Below, one piece after another: positions 13,404-51,588 of a stretch of 64,000 bases of DNA. How positions within the stretch are numbered: position 1 is the first letter of the stretch; each line of letters opens with the position of its first letter. Position numbers and translations under genes: made by a program. This DNA comes from Candidatus Peribacteria bacterium (GTDB lineage Bacteria > Patescibacteriota > Gracilibacteria > Peribacterales > Peribacteraceae), in assembly GCA_023038255.1 (NCBI GenBank), contig CP082927.1, positions 268,436 through 332,435 of the forward strand, in the 5' to 3' direction. Under the pieces are notes generated by a model, which was given only the letters and a program-made list of their open reading frames with translations, was not told the DNA's origin and did not search any database.

Positions 13404-14441
13404 ATGACAACAAACTCCCTTCCCCGTTCTATTTTCCAGAAAGCAACCGAGGCCGGTGCGTCCGACGTGCATATTGCCGTTGGCTCGCCGCTCCTTTTCC
13501 GCATCAGCGGAGAGCTCGTGCCGCAGACTAAAGGAAATATTACCGAAGCGGATGCGACGGGGTTTGTAAAAGCGGTTCTGAGTGAACCGGACTACAAGCG
13601 TTACAAAGAGCAGAAAGAAGTCGACGTCTCCTATTCCCTTGCGGACGGCACACGTCTGCGTGTGAACTGTCACTACGAGCGCGGCAATCCAGGACTGGTT
13701 GCCCGCGTCATCCCGCAGGATATTCCCTCACTCGACGCACTCGGACTCGAACAGATTGTTCCGTCATTCGCACAACACTCTGAGGGTCTCATTCTCTTCA
13801 CCGGTCCGACCGGCACAGGAAAGTCCACCTCACTCGCATCCATGATGCAGTATATAAACGAAACAGAGGCACGCAGCATGGTCACACTCGAAGACCCCAT
13901 CGAATTCCTCTTCCCGCAGGGCAAAGGTCTCATTCGCCAGCGTCAGCTGGGACAGGACTTCCTCTCCTTTGCAGAAGCCCTCAAGCGTGTGCTGCGCCAG
14001 GACCCGGATATCGTGATGGTGGGAGAAATGCGCGACCCGGAAACCATCGCCGCCGCCCTCACCCTCGCAGAAACCGGTCACCTCATTCTCGCAACCCTCC
14101 ACACCCCCAACGCCATCCAGACCGTTGACCGTATTATCGACGTCTTCCCGCCGTACCAGCAGCCGCAGATCCGTTCACAGCTCAGCATGTCTCTGAAGGC
14201 CATTGTGGCCCAGCGCTTGCTGCCGAAAGTGGGTGGGGGACGCACGGCGCAGCGTGAAATTCTCATCAACACTCCTGCCGCCAGCAACATCATCCGCGAC
14301 AACCGCATTCAGGAGCTCAAGTCCGTGCTCCAGACCGGTGGCGATACCGGGATGATTTCTTTTGAGAAGGATGCCAAGAGGCTCCTGAAAGAAGGGCTCA
14401 TCAGCAAGGAGACGTATGAGTGGACGGAGGTGCAGGGGTAA
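13404..14441 (+). CDS. pilT: Type IV pilus retraction ATPase PilT
   Basis: 345 residues, the normal PilT length. PilT is a cytoplasmic hexameric ATPase that depolymerises type IV pili, giving twitching motility and DNA uptake. The N-terminal PAS-like domain is followed by the RecA-like ATPase: Walker A GPTGTGKST at about residue 134, the Asp box (VTLEDPIEF), Walker B (DIVMVGEMRDPET) and the His box (GHLILATLHT). The PilT-type C-terminal region is present, although the AIRNLIRE motif is replaced by NNIIRDNRIQ-like sequence (NIIRDNRIQEL). No other pilus gene lies in this window. Leaderless start predicted. Confidence 0.95.
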   Translation: MTTNSLPRSIFQKATEAGASDVHIAVGSPLLFRISGELVPQTKGNITEADATGFVKAVLSEPDYKRYKEQKEVDVSYSLADGTRLRVNCHYERGNPGLVARVIPQDIPSLDALGLEQIVPSFAQHSEGLILFTGPTGTGKSTSLASMMQYINETEARSMVTLEDPIEFLFPQGKGLIRQRQLGQDFLSFAEALKRVLRQDPDIVMVGEMRDPETIAAALTLAETGHLILATLHTPNAIQTVDRIIDVFPPYQQPQIRSQLSMSLKAIVAQRLLPKVGGGRTAQREILINTPAASNIIRDNRIQELKSVLQTGGDTGMISFEKDAKRLLKEGLISKETYEWTEVQG

Positions 14442-14477: not shown

Positions 14478-14600
14478 TTATTTTTTCCATATTCTGGAAA
14501 CGTATCTGGCACATTCGCCGATGATGATTAGTGGCAGGAGTGCGATCATGAGTAGGATCGCGCAGAGCAGAAAACAAACATCCCTCAATGTGTGTCGCAT
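14478..14600 (-). CDS. Possible 40-residue single-pass membrane peptide
   Basis: An ATG at 14600 opens a 40-codon frame ending in TAA: a basic N-terminus (MRHTLRD), one hydrophobic helix (VCFLLCAILLMIALLPLIII) and a basic tail (RYVSRIWKK). It lies 25 nt downstream of the structured RNA on the same strand, so it may be the gene that this RNA controls. The frame can be extended upstream, but only through the RNA structure. No Shine-Dalgarno and no homologue known to me. Confidence 0.35.
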   Translation of the reverse strand: MRHTLRDVCFLLCAILLMIALLPLIIIGECARYVSRIWKK

Positions 14601-14623: not shown

Positions 14624-14740
14624 AAAAGGGCCGTCCGAGCCGGTTGACCCATGCCACTTCAAGGGAACCCCTCGGAGCGCATGACCGTGCAGAGACGGCC
14701 CTTCCGGGGCTCTTATGGGGTAAAACTGTGGCATGGGTCT
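14624..14740 (-). ncRNA. Candidate structured RNA with interlocked (pseudoknot) stems
   Basis: Two perfect complementary pairs are interleaved on the minus strand: stem 1 is a 12-bp GTGGCATGGGTC-type pair (14739-14728 with 14657-14646); stem 2 is a 10-bp AAGGGCCGTC-type pair (14703-14694 with 14635-14626). The order 1a-2a-1b-2b is that of an H-type pseudoknot. The RNA ends in GGCCCTTTTG. Part of stem 2a can instead form a local GCCC-CGGAA-GGGC hairpin, and CGAGGG-GTT-CCCTTG forms another in the loop. A promoter ends 6-7 nt before stem 1. It matches no RNA class I can name (not tmRNA, RNase P, SRP or 6S). The whole gap 14442-15025 holds no other gene apart from the possible small peptide. Confidence 0.5.
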
Positions 14741-14745
14741 TCTTC

Positions 14746-14773
14746 ATCGTATCAATTCACGCATAAGAAGCAA
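14746..14773 (-). promoter_or_regulatory. Candidate promoter of the structured RNA
   Basis: TTGCTT (14773-14768), 16-nt spacer and TACGAT (14751-14746) on the minus strand. The expected transcription start (about 14739-14740) coincides with the first base of stem 1. Confidence 0.45.
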
Positions 14774-14991
14774 TGTGTCGTTTTGTGAATCAGATTTAGT
14801 GATATGCGAATGTAGTTCGCGTCAGACGTTCTAAGTAATAATGAAATGGCGTCCTGTACCAATGCGTCTTCCGATGTAAACAATCTGCAAAGAACGGCAG
14901 GTAGATTTTCTATATTCCTATAAAAAGTCGTGAAAACCCTTATTTAACAATAAATATAAGCCTCAGTTTCAGTTGCGAGTCGGTCGTTTTC

Positions 14992-15020
14992 TTGTAAGAA
15001 AGACGCATAAGTGCTATAAT
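14992..15020 (+). promoter_or_regulatory. Extended -10 promoter of the sensor kinase
   Basis: TTGTAA (14992-14997), 17-nt spacer ending in TGC, then a perfect TATAAT (15015-15020). The ATG is 8 nt further on, so the mRNA should be leaderless or nearly so. Confidence 0.75.
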
Positions 15021-15028
15021 TAGAAGTG

Positions 15029-16489
15029 ATGGAGAATTTAAAAAAATATAAAAAATTGCAGGGACTTCAACAGTTATTCCACGGTGAGTACAGAAGTATT
15101 TACGTTTTAGGAGCTTTTACAATTTTGGCATCTGTAATTACTTATGTATTATTTTCATATACAGAAAATTTACTTAAAGAAAGATTACAAGAAAGATTGC
15201 TAGCTATTGTCTCTACGGCAGCCACCCAATTTAAAGCAGAGGAAATTGAGGAAATTCGAAGCATTGACGATATTGGAACTAAAGAGTTTGAGCATTTGGT
15301 TTATCAGCTAAATCAAATTAAAGATGCAAATACCAATATTCGTTATGCATATTTAATGAGACGAACAAACGACCCAGATATTTTGGAATTTGTGGCAGAT
15401 GCTGAATCTTTAAAAACCGAAGATGAATTGGATGTTAATGATGATGGAATTTTGCAAGACGATGAAATGGCTCCTTTGCCAGGCGACCCTTTTGAAATTA
15501 ACACTTATCCTGTATTAAAAAATGAAGCTTTTTATCATGCAGCAGTTGATAATGATTTAGAGGAGGATCAATGGTCAGTCCAGATGTCTGCATACGCGCC
15601 TATTTTTGACTTAACAGGAAACGTGACTGCAATTGTAGGTGTAGATGTAGAGGTTAGTGATTTTCTAGCATTAACAAGATCCACACTTTTGCCGTTCCTG
15701 CTTTTTGTTTTATTTTTAATATTCCTTTTGACTCTCTTGACTTTAATCTTGGTGAGAATCTGGAATGAAAAAGTTAAAGCAGTAGAAGAACTTGATCGTC
15801 AAAAAGACGAATTGCTAAGCATAGTAAGTCATCAGCTTGCGACTCCAATTTCTGCAATTAAATGGAATTTGGAAATGATGATTGATGGGGACTTGGGTAA
15901 ATTTGCAAAAGAACAATTGAAAACAATAAAGTCCTTATCGGAAATTTCCGATGGCTTATCTGATCTTGTTAGCATGATCTTAGATGTTTCTCGTATTCAA
16001 TTGGGCAGAGTGCATATAGAACAGCAAGAAATGGATCTCGAAAACTTCTTTAAAGAATTACTTGATGTAATTAAGCCAAAAGCAGCCGAAAAAAATATTG
16101 AATTACTTGTTAAATTGCCATCTAAATATCCTAAAGCCATGCTGGATAAAAGGTATACTCATATGACAATAGAGAATATTCTTAGTAATGCGGTAAAATA
16201 TACGCCCAATAATGGTTCAGTTAACCTTTCTGTAGAAATCCGAAATAAAAAATTATACTGTGCTATAAAAGATACTGGTGTTGGTATTCCAAAAGCTGAT
16301 CAGGTTAAGATTTTTGGAAAATTATTCCGTGCTAGTAATGTTAGAAATACAGTAGATGGAAATGGTTTTGGATTGTATGTCGCTAAAGGTGCAATAGAGG
16401 CACAGGGAGGAAAAATTCGCTTTGAAAGTGAGGAGCAAAAAGGAACAACATTCTTTATTGAATTACCTTTAGAAGGACAGAAAAAATAA
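15029..16489 (+). CDS. Membrane sensor histidine kinase with EF-hand-like loop
   Basis: 486 residues from ATG 15029 (GTG 15026 is an alternative). Two transmembrane helices (about 28-47 and 214-238) enclose an extracytoplasmic sensor of about 165 residues that contains DVNDDGILQDDE, a canonical 12-residue EF-hand calcium loop. The kinase core has the H box (SIVSHQLATPISAIKWN), N box (IENILSNAVKYTPNN), G1 (DTGVGIPKADQ) and G2 (GNGFGLYVAKGAI). No clear HAMP domain lies between the membrane and the H box. It would autophosphorylate on His and pass phosphate to a response regulator; none is encoded nearby, so it is an orphan. The gene is much more AT-rich than ligA or ftsH. Confidence 0.92.
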   Translation: MENLKKYKKLQGLQQLFHGEYRSIYVLGAFTILASVITYVLFSYTENLLKERLQERLLAIVSTAATQFKAEEIEEIRSIDDIGTKEFEHLVYQLNQIKDANTNIRYAYLMRRTNDPDILEFVADAESLKTEDELDVNDDGILQDDEMAPLPGDPFEINTYPVLKNEAFYHAAVDNDLEEDQWSVQMSAYAPIFDLTGNVTAIVGVDVEVSDFLALTRSTLLPFLLFVLFLIFLLTLLTLILVRIWNEKVKAVEELDRQKDELLSIVSHQLATPISAIKWNLEMMIDGDLGKFAKEQLKTIKSLSEISDGLSDLVSMILDVSRIQLGRVHIEQQEMDLENFFKELLDVIKPKAAEKNIELLVKLPSKYPKAMLDKRYTHMTIENILSNAVKYTPNNGSVNLSVEIRNKKLYCAIKDTGVGIPKADQVKIFGKLFRASNVRNTVDGNGFGLYVAKGAIEAQGGKIRFESEEQKGTTFFIELPLEGQKK

Positions 16490-16500
16490 TATTTGCATGG

Positions 16501-17391
16501 TTAAGAAACCATCCAAACACCGAAACACATTACGAGAACTAGCATAATTTTATAATGTAATTTGTGCCAAACTTGCTTGTCACCCAATTTTGGAAAAAAG
16601 AATAGAAAAAGAAGACTTAGTAAAAAAGCATATGCGGACATAGTGGTTTCAGCAGCTGCGACCAGAGAAGGCTTGCCTGTTGCAATTCCTCTTTGTGCAA
16701 AGAATAGTGCAGCTAAATTTGCAATTTCAATAATTATAAAAAATCGCAGCATAGTAATGATTGTTTTGATATTTCTTACCATTACGATTCTGATATTTTT
16801 AAATAACAAGGGAACTAAACCAGCAAAAATAAGGCCACATGTTATTATTAGGAATCCTAAGAAAAAAGGTGTTTCTGCAAAGACAATTTCTTCAAGCAGA
16901 TAAACTCCAACCTGCATTATGCAGGCACAGATCATCAATAAAAAAGAGCGCCATCTGGTTTTTGTTTCTCCATCAACGAGGCACATTGCGATTGATGCTA
17001 GTGTTAGAATTGCGATTCCTGCATATTCATAGAGTGAAAAAAATCTTCCATAAATCGCAAAAGTAAGCAGTGGTAGCAATACTGGGATTAGATTCCAATA
17101 TGCTGCAACGATTCCTGCTTCGCTATATTCTAATGCTTGGAAGTATAGCGCTTGGCTGATCTGTATTAGCACCCCCGCTAAAAATGCTAAAATGACAATT
17201 TGTATAGGTGGAAAGGTCCAATCAACAAAAGGACCGACAAATGGGATAAGTTGGAATACCACAAGGGATGCAATTGAGCTTGTTATTACGCCCATCCAAG
17301 GTTTTTCAAATATTTCCCCTACACAATATGAATCAAGTACATGAACAACTGCGAAGAAAAATGCTGCAAGTAACGCAAAAACTAACCACAT
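16501..17391 (-). CDS. EamA/DMT-family membrane transporter
   Basis: 296 residues made of about ten hydrophobic helices in two similar halves, as in the drug/metabolite transporter superfamily. Features include an N-terminal WLVFALLAAFFFAVVHV helix, a SEAGIVAAYWNLIPVLLPLLTF helix pair end to the first half, and GKPSLVAAAETTMSAYAFLLS in the second half. Substrate unknown; the two polyamine-type enzymes next door make a polyamine or related metabolite a possibility, but only by proximity. The start ATG 17391 is 6 nt after TACTAT. AT-rich like the surrounding island and convergent with the kinase gene. Confidence 0.85.
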   Translation of the reverse strand: MWLVFALLAAFFFAVVHVLDSYCVGEIFEKPWMGVITSSIASLVVFQLIPFVGPFVDWTFPPIQIVILAFLAGVLIQISQALYFQALEYSEAGIVAAYWNLIPVLLPLLTFAIYGRFFSLYEYAGIAILTLASIAMCLVDGETKTRWRSFLLMICACIMQVGVYLLEEIVFAETPFFLGFLIITCGLIFAGLVPLLFKNIRIVMVRNIKTIITMLRFFIIIEIANLAALFFAQRGIATGKPSLVAAAETTMSAYAFLLSLLFLFFFPKLGDKQVWHKLHYKIMLVLVMCFGVWMVS

Positions 17392-17479
17392 ATATAAATA
17401 GTACTCTTTATAACTAAAACATTAATGCCATAGTTTTGTTAATTTTGCAAATTTTTTAAAAAGTGTTAATATATAACTA

Positions 17480-17508
17480 TTGGACTAATGCATTAAGTAA
17501 AGTACTAT
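17480..17508 (+). promoter_or_regulatory. Promoter of the deoxyhypusine-synthase-like gene
   Basis: TTGGAC (17480-17485), 17-nt spacer, TACTAT (17503-17508). The leader to the ATG at 17532 is about 17 nt. It diverges from the transporter promoter. Confidence 0.5.
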
Positions 17509-17531
17509 TTAGTTAATTTCCTTCGCAATTT

Positions 17532-18497
17532 ATGACAAGCATCTCTGGCTTCATGGAAAGAAATTACAGACATTTTAATAGTAGAGAGACGCTTGATGCA
17601 GCAAAAGCTTGGAAAAAACATTCAGAAGAAGGGGGCAAAATGTTTCTTGCAATGGCAGGGGCAATGAGCACTGCTCAGATTGGTATTTCACTGGCAGAGA
17701 TGATACGTGCCGACAAGATTCACGCTATTAGTTGTAGTGCAAATAACTTAGAAGAAGATATTTTTAATCTTATAGGACGAAAGGCATACTTTGCCGTATC
17801 TGAATATCGAGATCTAACCCCAATTGAAGAGGAAAAATTATATAATGATAATTTAAGTAGGATTACAGATGTATGTATTCCAACAGAGACGTTTACACAC
17901 ATTCGTAAAGAAATAGTGCCTTTGTGGCAAAAGGCTGAAAGGGAAAATCGCAGACTTTTTCCTTATGAATTTTTTTATGAAATGATTCGTTCCGGAGTTC
18001 TTGAAGAGCATTATCATATTGATCCCAAAGATTCATGGGTTATTGCAGCATGTGAAAAGAATTTACAAATATTTACCCCTGGTTATGAGGATTGTACAAC
18101 GGGTAATATTTTTGTTTCATGTGTTATGGATGGGCAAATAAAAAATGTAAATACAATTCGCTCTGGAATGGAGCAGATGGAATCTCTTGCAAATTGGTAT
18201 TTAGAAGAAGCTAATAAAAATTCAATTGGTTTCTTCCAAATTGGTGGTGGCATTGCTGGAGATTTTCCTATTTGCGTTGTTCCAATGTTAATTCAAGATT
18301 TGAAACGTGCTGTTCCATTTTGGGGTTATTTTGCACAGATTGGAGATTCAACAACGTCGTATGGCTCTTATTCAGGAGCTGTGCCTAATGAAAAAATAAC
18401 ATGGGGGAAACTTAACGCCGCTACGCCCAAGTTTATGATTAACTCGGATGCAACAATTGTTGCACCTTTAATCTTTAATTATGTTTTAGGTAATTAA
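17532..18497 (+). CDS. Deoxyhypusine-synthase-family enzyme
   Basis: 321 residues, family length. Eukaryotic and archaeal deoxyhypusine synthase moves the aminobutyl group of spermidine to a Lys of eIF5A using NAD+; bacterial members act on small amines (for example homospermidine formation) because bacteria lack eIF5A. Family signatures are visible: an N-terminal MAGAMSTAQIG stretch, the GGGIAGDF loop, GDSTTSYGSYSGA, and EKITWGKL, whose Lys (about 293) aligns with the catalytic Lys329 of the human enzyme. It faces an AdoMet-decarboxylase-like gene end to end with 11 bp between. Exact substrate unknown. AT-rich island member. Confidence 0.85.
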   Translation: MTSISGFMERNYRHFNSRETLDAAKAWKKHSEEGGKMFLAMAGAMSTAQIGISLAEMIRADKIHAISCSANNLEEDIFNLIGRKAYFAVSEYRDLTPIEEEKLYNDNLSRITDVCIPTETFTHIRKEIVPLWQKAERENRRLFPYEFFYEMIRSGVLEEHYHIDPKDSWVIAACEKNLQIFTPGYEDCTTGNIFVSCVMDGQIKNVNTIRSGMEQMESLANWYLEEANKNSIGFFQIGGGIAGDFPICVVPMLIQDLKRAVPFWGYFAQIGDSTTSYGSYSGAVPNEKITWGKLNAATPKFMINSDATIVAPLIFNYVLGN

Positions 18498-18508
18498 TAA
18501 ATAAGAAA

Positions 18509-18982
18509 TTAGTTTGATCCAAAGCGTTTATCTAAAATAACCATTGCACCCTCCCCGCTAATTTCCCAAATAGACCTCTCTGCCCGTACGTCTTTTCTAT
18601 ACAAAAAATCTGCATGCCATTTCGCCAATGCTAAATGTTTATCGATAATCGGAATAATTTGCTTCCAACTGAAGTGTTTACAGCTGTAGAAGTCCATATG
18701 AATGTTCGGATTGTTTCCATCCGGTTCAATGAAGTAGTGTCCGCTGATGTGGCTGGTAGTAATAGGTTGAATAAAGGACCAGCCTGGAGCGCGAAGGTCT
18801 GCAGCTGGATAGATTTCGAGTCGGCCCAGCTTCTCCATTCCAAGTTCCGCCAGTAAGTCATTGATTAAATTATTGGTTATCTCATCCATGCGGGACTGAT
18901 CCAATCCTTCTTTTAGGAATGCGTCTAGAATCATCATTTCATGACTGAGCACAATCGGTTCAGTAGACAATTCTTTTGACAT
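18509..18982 (-). CDS. S-adenosylmethionine-decarboxylase-like protein
   Basis: 157 residues. The core TTSHISGHYF...IHMDFYSC aligns with the prokaryotic SpeD core (T. maritima SESHLTIHTWPE...FFTC): Ser77 takes the place of the self-cleaving Ser that becomes the pyruvoyl group, His82 that of His68, and Cys101 that of Cys83. The residue before Ser is Thr instead of Glu, and there is a short insertion before the Cys. AdoMet decarboxylase makes decarboxylated AdoMet, the aminopropyl donor for spermidine. The assignment is by motif only. Convergent with the deoxyhypusine-synthase-like gene; no spermidine synthase is nearby. Confidence 0.65.
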   Translation of the reverse strand: MSKELSTEPIVLSHEMMILDAFLKEGLDQSRMDEITNNLINDLLAELGMEKLGRLEIYPAADLRAPGWSFIQPITTSHISGHYFIEPDGNNPNIHMDFYSCKHFSWKQIIPIIDKHLALAKWHADFLYRKDVRAERSIWEISGEGAMVILDKRFGSN

Positions 18983-19053
18983 ATTGAAAGGAAGTTGATG
19001 GAAAGTAGAAAAAATGTACCACCCGTCAGTTTTTTGTCAAAGAAATCATACTA

Positions 19054-51015: not shown

Positions 51016-51588
51016 TTATTCCGTATAGCCCCAGTCCTTCTGCCACTGCTTCATCCTATCAATCTCCTGCTGCTGTGCTGTGATGATAGCGTCGGCCATC
51101 GTTTTGATTTCGTCATGCTTGGCAGCAGACTTGGCGGCAATAGCCATATCGATGGCGCCCTGATGGTGGGGGATCATTCCCTCTATAAACGCCGCATCAA
51201 ATGCATCACCGGTTTTGCCGGCAAGCATCTGAGACATATCGTCCATCGACATGCTCATGGCGTCATGATCCATCATGTCATCGTCGTCCATGTCCATCAT
51301 CATGTGCATGCCATTCATGCCGCCGTTACCGTAGCGCGTTTCGGTCATCATGCCATTACGCTCGATGCGCTGCATTGGCAGAGTCAGGAGAGTGATCAGA
51401 CAGACGGCAACACCTCCAAGGAAGAGCCACAGTCCCCATTGCTTCATCTGCGCAGCAGTCAGTGTTTTGGCTGCCCAGATAATGAGCAGCAGCACGCCGA
51501 TGGTTGCCGCAAGCATGCCGACAGAGTGAAGAATCCACAGAAGTATAAGACCAATATCCGGGCCGGTGGTGTACATCGTGTCCATCAT
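51016..51588 (-). CDS. Membrane-bound DUF305 protein
   Basis: 190 residues. Two hydrophobic helices (about 12-40 and 51-69) precede a Met/Asp-rich stretch (MMMDMDDDDMMDHD) and a DUF305 domain (AFIEGMIPHHQGAIDMAIAA...MKQWQKDWGY). Met/His/Asp clusters fit copper binding. It is 42 bp after copA on the same strand and ahead of the operon terminator, so it is likely the last gene of the copper unit. Related to the lipoprotein DUF305 at 36362-36688. Confidence 0.9.
   Translation of the reverse strand: MMDTMYTTGPDIGLILLWILHSVGMLAATIGVLLLIIWAAKTLTAAQMKQWGLWLFLGGVAVCLITLLTLPMQRIERNGMMTETRYGNGGMNGMHMMMDMDDDDMMDHDAMSMSMDDMSQMLAGKTGDAFDAAFIEGMIPHHQGAIDMAIAAKSAAKHDEIKTMADAIITAQQQEIDRMKQWQKDWGYTE

Follow-up and report, generated by a model that had tools for sequence, protein, structure and literature searches.

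A candidate pseudoknot-capable small RNA between pilT and a histidine kinase gene in a Candidatus Peribacteria genome

In H-type pseudoknot riboswitches (preQ1-II, SAM-II, c-di-GMP-II, fluoride), two stems interleave and a local hairpin can rival one of them. An element of comparable architecture was examined on the minus strand of a 64,000-nucleotide stretch of Candidatus Peribacteria DNA (the window), which corresponds to bases 268436-332435 of a genome assembled as a single contig (1,239,242 bp, 99% complete). Like these riboswitches the element has two interleaved stems, one rivalled by a local hairpin. Compared with the families from general knowledge, its stems are longer and fully Watson-Crick and its loops are larger, and unlike them it has neither an Rfam match nor a regulated gene behind it. 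Intergenic bacterial small RNA genes, taken as a general kind, share with the element an intergenic position, a promoter of its own, a length of about 100 nt, a stem at the 5′ end and a GC-rich 3′ stem with a U run; the element differs from them in that its second stem is not a local terminator hairpin, having its 5′ arm inside the loop of the first stem, and in that its U run is short. Read on the plus strand, the order of the stems resembles the P1-P2-P1′-P2′ arrangement of HDV-like ribozymes. This class was rejected, as inspection revealed neither a P3 hairpin connecting P2 with P1′ nor a P4 hairpin nor a catalytic C segment, and there was no Rfam match. Among the open-access papers searched, none dealt with structured small RNAs from Peribacteria or from any other Candidate Phyla Radiation bacterium. 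The reading that we prefer, with a probability of roughly 45%, is a lineage-restricted, free-standing, pseudoknot-capable small RNA of about 116 nt encoded on the minus strand (14624..14739), with its +1 at G14739 and its 3′ end near 14624.

A first-pass annotation had claimed two perfect interlocked stems of 12 and 10 bp, and both were read directly in the sequence. In stem 1, GACCCATGCCAC (5′ arm, 14739-14728, entered in the feature list as GACCCAUGCCAC) pairs with GTGGCATGGGTC (3′ arm, 14657-14646, entered as GUGGCAUGGGUC) over 12 bp, closing a 94-nt domain. In stem 2, AAGGGCCGTC (5′ arm, 14703-14694, entered as AAGGGCCGUC) pairs with GACGGCCCTT (3′ arm, 14635-14626, entered as GACGGCCCUU and followed by UU-GUAC) over 10 bp. 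Every pair is Watson-Crick and the arms follow one another in the interlocked order ABAB. The competing local hairpin was likewise found as described, with GGCCGU (14700-14695) facing ACGGUC (14688-14683), so that it spans 14683..14700 on the minus strand. Single-sequence prediction adds a possible inner helix within stem 1, GAGCCCC (14712-14706) with GGGGUUC (14671-14665). The proposed promoter, the UUUU run and a peptide frame behind the element, for which the annotation had left the strand unstated, are all minus-strand features.

Inverted repeats alone are common: a Markov control predicts 0.5 of at least 12 bp and 7.7 of at least 10 bp per window. Interlocked 12/10 pairs are expected 0.005 times per window (order-2 Markov control), or about 0.1 times per genome, and the complete 1.24-Mb genome contains only one. 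The crossing-stem energy of the element (summed stacking of two crossing stems) ranked second among all 126-nt segments sampled in the genome, and none of 2000 dinucleotide-shuffled versions of that segment equalled it. The top-ranked segment and many other high scorers were repeated-word palindromes. The structure is unusual, yet it is not proof of function: the feature was picked by eye from 64 kb.

The repeated-word palindromes are intergenic features with arms of short repeated words of about 7 bases (GGTTATGGGTTATGAG ... CCCATAACCCATAACC), lying for example at positions 51432-51498, 89637-89718, 199869-199963, 727900-727981, 793927-794015 and 964819-964923 of the contig (G000:C1). A TTATGGG-like word is common to at least seven palindrome loci, and one locus (548872) carries a different word.

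The 94-nt stem 1 domain folded at −42.9 kcal/mol, with z = −3.4 against 200 shuffles. When folding was computed on a growing chain, stem 1 formed first, from nucleotide 94 on, and the local hairpin held most of the stem 2 5′ arm (pair probability 0.84-0.96) before the 3′ arm was made. For the full-length RNA, about 83% of the ensemble adopted the stem 1 fold versus 17% the stem 2 fold, indicating that the two compete within an ensemble that covers nested folds; stems 1 and 2 could coexist only as a pseudoknot. The plus strand (−52.6 kcal/mol) folded as well as the minus strand (−51.4 kcal/mol). The choice of strand therefore rests on the promoter and not on folding.

The annotation had placed a promoter, TTGCTT-N16-TACGAT, so as to start transcription on the first base of stem 1. 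Both hexamers are present on the minus strand, the −35-like TTGCTT (14768..14773) lying 16 nt before the −10 hexamer TACGAT (14746..14751), and with the genome's own spacing, in which the first base of the −10 hexamer lies at −12, the start falls at 14739, as claimed. The genome lacks a Shine-Dalgarno signal, and TANN[AC]T is strongly concentrated with its first base exactly at −12 from the start codon (73 of 512 genes have it there, while the background is about 5 per position), suggesting that many mRNAs are leaderless. A promoter profile was built from 80 leaderless-gene promoters of this genome; it has TTG at −35 to −33 and C-G-N-TA-N-A-[AC]-T at −15 to −7. In the element, TACGAT conforms to the TANN[AC]T motif of positions −12 to −7, and the upstream hexamer begins with TTG, the −35 signal seen in promoters of this genome.

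Six start-codon-adjacent columns were left out of the profile, on the reasoning that they should capture the start codons of leaderless genes and be irrelevant to an RNA gene. Scored in this way the element's promoter reached 8.48 bits, a strength found at 531 of 558,988 intergenic positions (0.095%), 344 of them at most 60 nt upstream of an ORF start. The best promoter scores of 38 known stable-RNA genes had a median of 7.1 bits, and 2.9% of random intergenic best-of-40 values reached 8.48 bits. With the six columns included the promoter scored 3.16 bits, below the 5th percentile of the training set (6.0) and attained at 0.5% of intergenic positions; the exclusion was decided after this first score had been seen, and both scores are reported. 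Compared with the E. coli consensus, the site agrees at 7 of 12 positions, which is common (70 sites of at least 7/12 in 661 nt). An earlier reading of the promoter as a chance match, drawn from the E. coli consensus counts and the all-column profile, was revised in light of the 8.48-bit score. The promoter is poor by the E. coli consensus and typical of stable-RNA genes on the genome's own profile. Among 25 listed orphan sites, ranked by fold z, the element has the longest stem at +1 (12 bp, the others at most 9), and the genome-specific profile found no plus-strand promoter in front of it.

The 3′ end is less clear-cut than the description of stem 2 as ending in UUUU implied. The four U are present at 14627-14624, but the first two are stem 2 pairs and the free tail is only UU-GUAC. 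Stem 2 is GC-rich and carries the UUUU, but it encloses a 58-nt loop and was not called by a terminator scan. With half of the U run taken up by stem pairing, a strong terminator is not supported, and stem 2 is weak as an intrinsic terminator.

Searches for relatives returned the element itself. None of the 4227 families of Rfam 15 matched at gathering scores, in agreement with the suggestion of a class not yet described; relaxing the threshold to E ≤ 10 added only archaeal C/D snoRNA models at chance level, located outside the element at plus-strand position 14517. No homologue was found by blastn in the 96 relatives or in the genome itself, where the element is single-copy. A covariance search, proposed in the first-pass annotation, was run in 39, 74 (family) and 353 (class) genomes with a model (R1) made from the single sequence and comprising stem 1 and the inner helices, and only the element was found with confidence; other hits reached at most 17 bits, and those shown were partial or poorly paired and were rejected as chance. 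The same model gave no convincing relative at loci around pilT and kinase homologues, and the exact stem 1 pattern was absent from viral contigs. The compared genomes include no member of the same genus, and a model built from one sequence detects relatives only if they are fairly close; this outcome is what either a genus-specific RNA or a chance structure would give.

A diverged housekeeping RNA was also considered and rejected. RNase P RNA (46208) and tmRNA lie elsewhere in the genome, whereas SRP RNA and its protein partner Ffh both went undetected. Across all 58 genomes searched (this one and relatives) SRP RNA (RF00169) was undetected, and Ffh (TIGR00959), undetected in this genome, was found in 14 of 14 controls; many CPR bacteria have been reported without SRP subunits (PMC8080830). 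The genome's 23S rRNA gene match contains a group I intron (RF00028), at about 194509-194771 of G000:C1 (L154 14509-14771).

The element occupies part of a 584-bp gap between two plus-strand genes: a pilT-family ATPase gene (13404..14441; TIGR01420), convergent with the candidate RNA, and a sensor histidine kinase gene (15026..16489; Pfam), divergent from it. The closest named relatives of the pilT gene are from Peregrinibacteria/Peribacteraceae. The kinase gene has its own near-leaderless promoter (TTGTAA-N17-TATAAT, 14992-15020; 10.4 bits on the genome-specific profile). The relative G022 carries, in this order and in convergent arrangement, pilT, a gene for a regulator (about 280 aa, weak MarR-like match), the histidine kinase gene and EamA; the regulator gene is missing here, and a search for its remnant detected none. 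The element sits where G+C drops from about 55% to 34%. Positions 14800-19000 form an AT-rich block (about 34% G+C versus 52% for the genome) with genes for the histidine kinase, an EamA transporter, a deoxyhypusine synthase-like protein and a SpeD-like protein. Two relatives, G020 and G022, retain part of this gene order, and the AT bias looks weaker in the G022 copy.

The chief rival to a small RNA, and one that has a substantial chance of being right, is that two unrelated inverted repeats interlock by chance in intergenic DNA drifting after loss of the regulator gene, with a coincidental promoter. Some 0.1 such pairs are expected per genome by chance, this one was picked out of 64 kb and is not conserved in the genomes searched, and the gap is lineage-specific, being filled by the regulator gene in G022; such an origin nevertheless calls for a second coincidence, a promoter of 0.095% frequency placed exactly on the first base of stem 1. 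A structure acting on the plus strand is improbable. It would separate pilT from the kinase gene, or cap the 3′ end of pilT mRNA, as a barrier that ends transcription or protects the message; the equally good folding of that strand and the position between two co-oriented genes would suit this role. Against it, the element begins 184 nt past the pilT stop codon, and a U-rich stretch with a weak hairpin lies closer to that stop; there is no U tail on the plus strand, and the kinase gene has a promoter of its own. Very improbable is a role at the DNA level, in which the element would serve as an operator dyad or recombination site bordering the AT-rich block. The drop in G+C and the strand symmetry of perfect inverted repeats fit such a site; against it, the element is single-copy and shares no repeat with the far edge of the block, and a relative shows synteny for pilT, the kinase gene, EamA and DHS, so that this is not a clear insertion.

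The annotation had also seen a 40-residue membrane peptide right behind the element, and a structured leader controlling it, as a riboswitch or a type I toxin mRNA, has a quite small chance of being correct. A hydrophobic frame of 40 codons does exist (14478..14600, minus strand), beginning 25 nt behind stem 2, and the closeness in energy of the stem 1 and stem 2 folds (83% versus 17%) is what a switch would need. However, the frame is non-coding by its hexamer score of −0.35 (genes: median 0.53, 5th percentile 0.02; shadow frames: median −0.50), no convincing homologue was found in 74 family genomes (best E 0.01, elsewhere), and it was judged to be no gene. An enclosing 89-codon frame, running from an ATG at 14747 straight through the RNA, scored −0.32 and was rejected as coding. 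By inspection, neither frame has a −10 element 12 nt before its start codon, and the plus strand in front of the element carries no antisense promoter. As there is no coding gene behind the element on the same strand, the riboswitch half of the original proposal is unsupported; a type I toxin-antitoxin mRNA is disfavoured by the same score and the lack of a convincing homologue. The free small RNA stays the best reading, since there is no Rfam match, the promoter lies at stem 1 and there is none on the other strand.

Pairing, rarity and a promoter typical of this genome are directly established for the candidate small RNA. Favouring it are the unique 12/10 pair, the 0/2000 shuffles, the domain z of −3.4, the 8.48-bit promoter at stem 1 base 1 and the early folding of stem 1; against it stand the absence of homologues in 353 class genomes, the 3.16-bit all-column score, the weak terminator and the competing nested folds. 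Transcription we infer from the promoter profile, stems and U run, and we infer likewise the knotted form, its stability and any target. RNA polymerase would start at G14739, so that the 5′ end would be buried in the 12-bp stem 1, which would close a compact 94-nt hairpin domain. The last ~20 nt may then displace the local hairpin and form stem 2 with the apical part of this domain, and the resulting H-type pseudoknot would close the 3′ end too. Both ends would thereby be protected, as expected of a stable RNA acting in trans or on a protein. It is a bolder and rather unlikely extension that the element represents a new small-RNA class confined to a single genus of Peribacteraceae. In such an RNA the 3′ end would pass through the 5′ hairpin, the terminator helix would double as a pseudoknot stem, and the molecule could flip between stem 1 and stem 2 folds.

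If transcribed, the element would be a concrete candidate for a structured small RNA with defined ends in Peribacteria, and a profile of leaderless-gene promoters can find stable-RNA genes in genomes that lack expression data. Promoter-like sites with no nearby ORF start and followed by stable folds also occur at G000:C1 941812 (minus strand, z −5.6), 722815 (plus, −2.5) and 31345 (minus, −3.3); these have no Rfam match and may be further unannotated RNAs.
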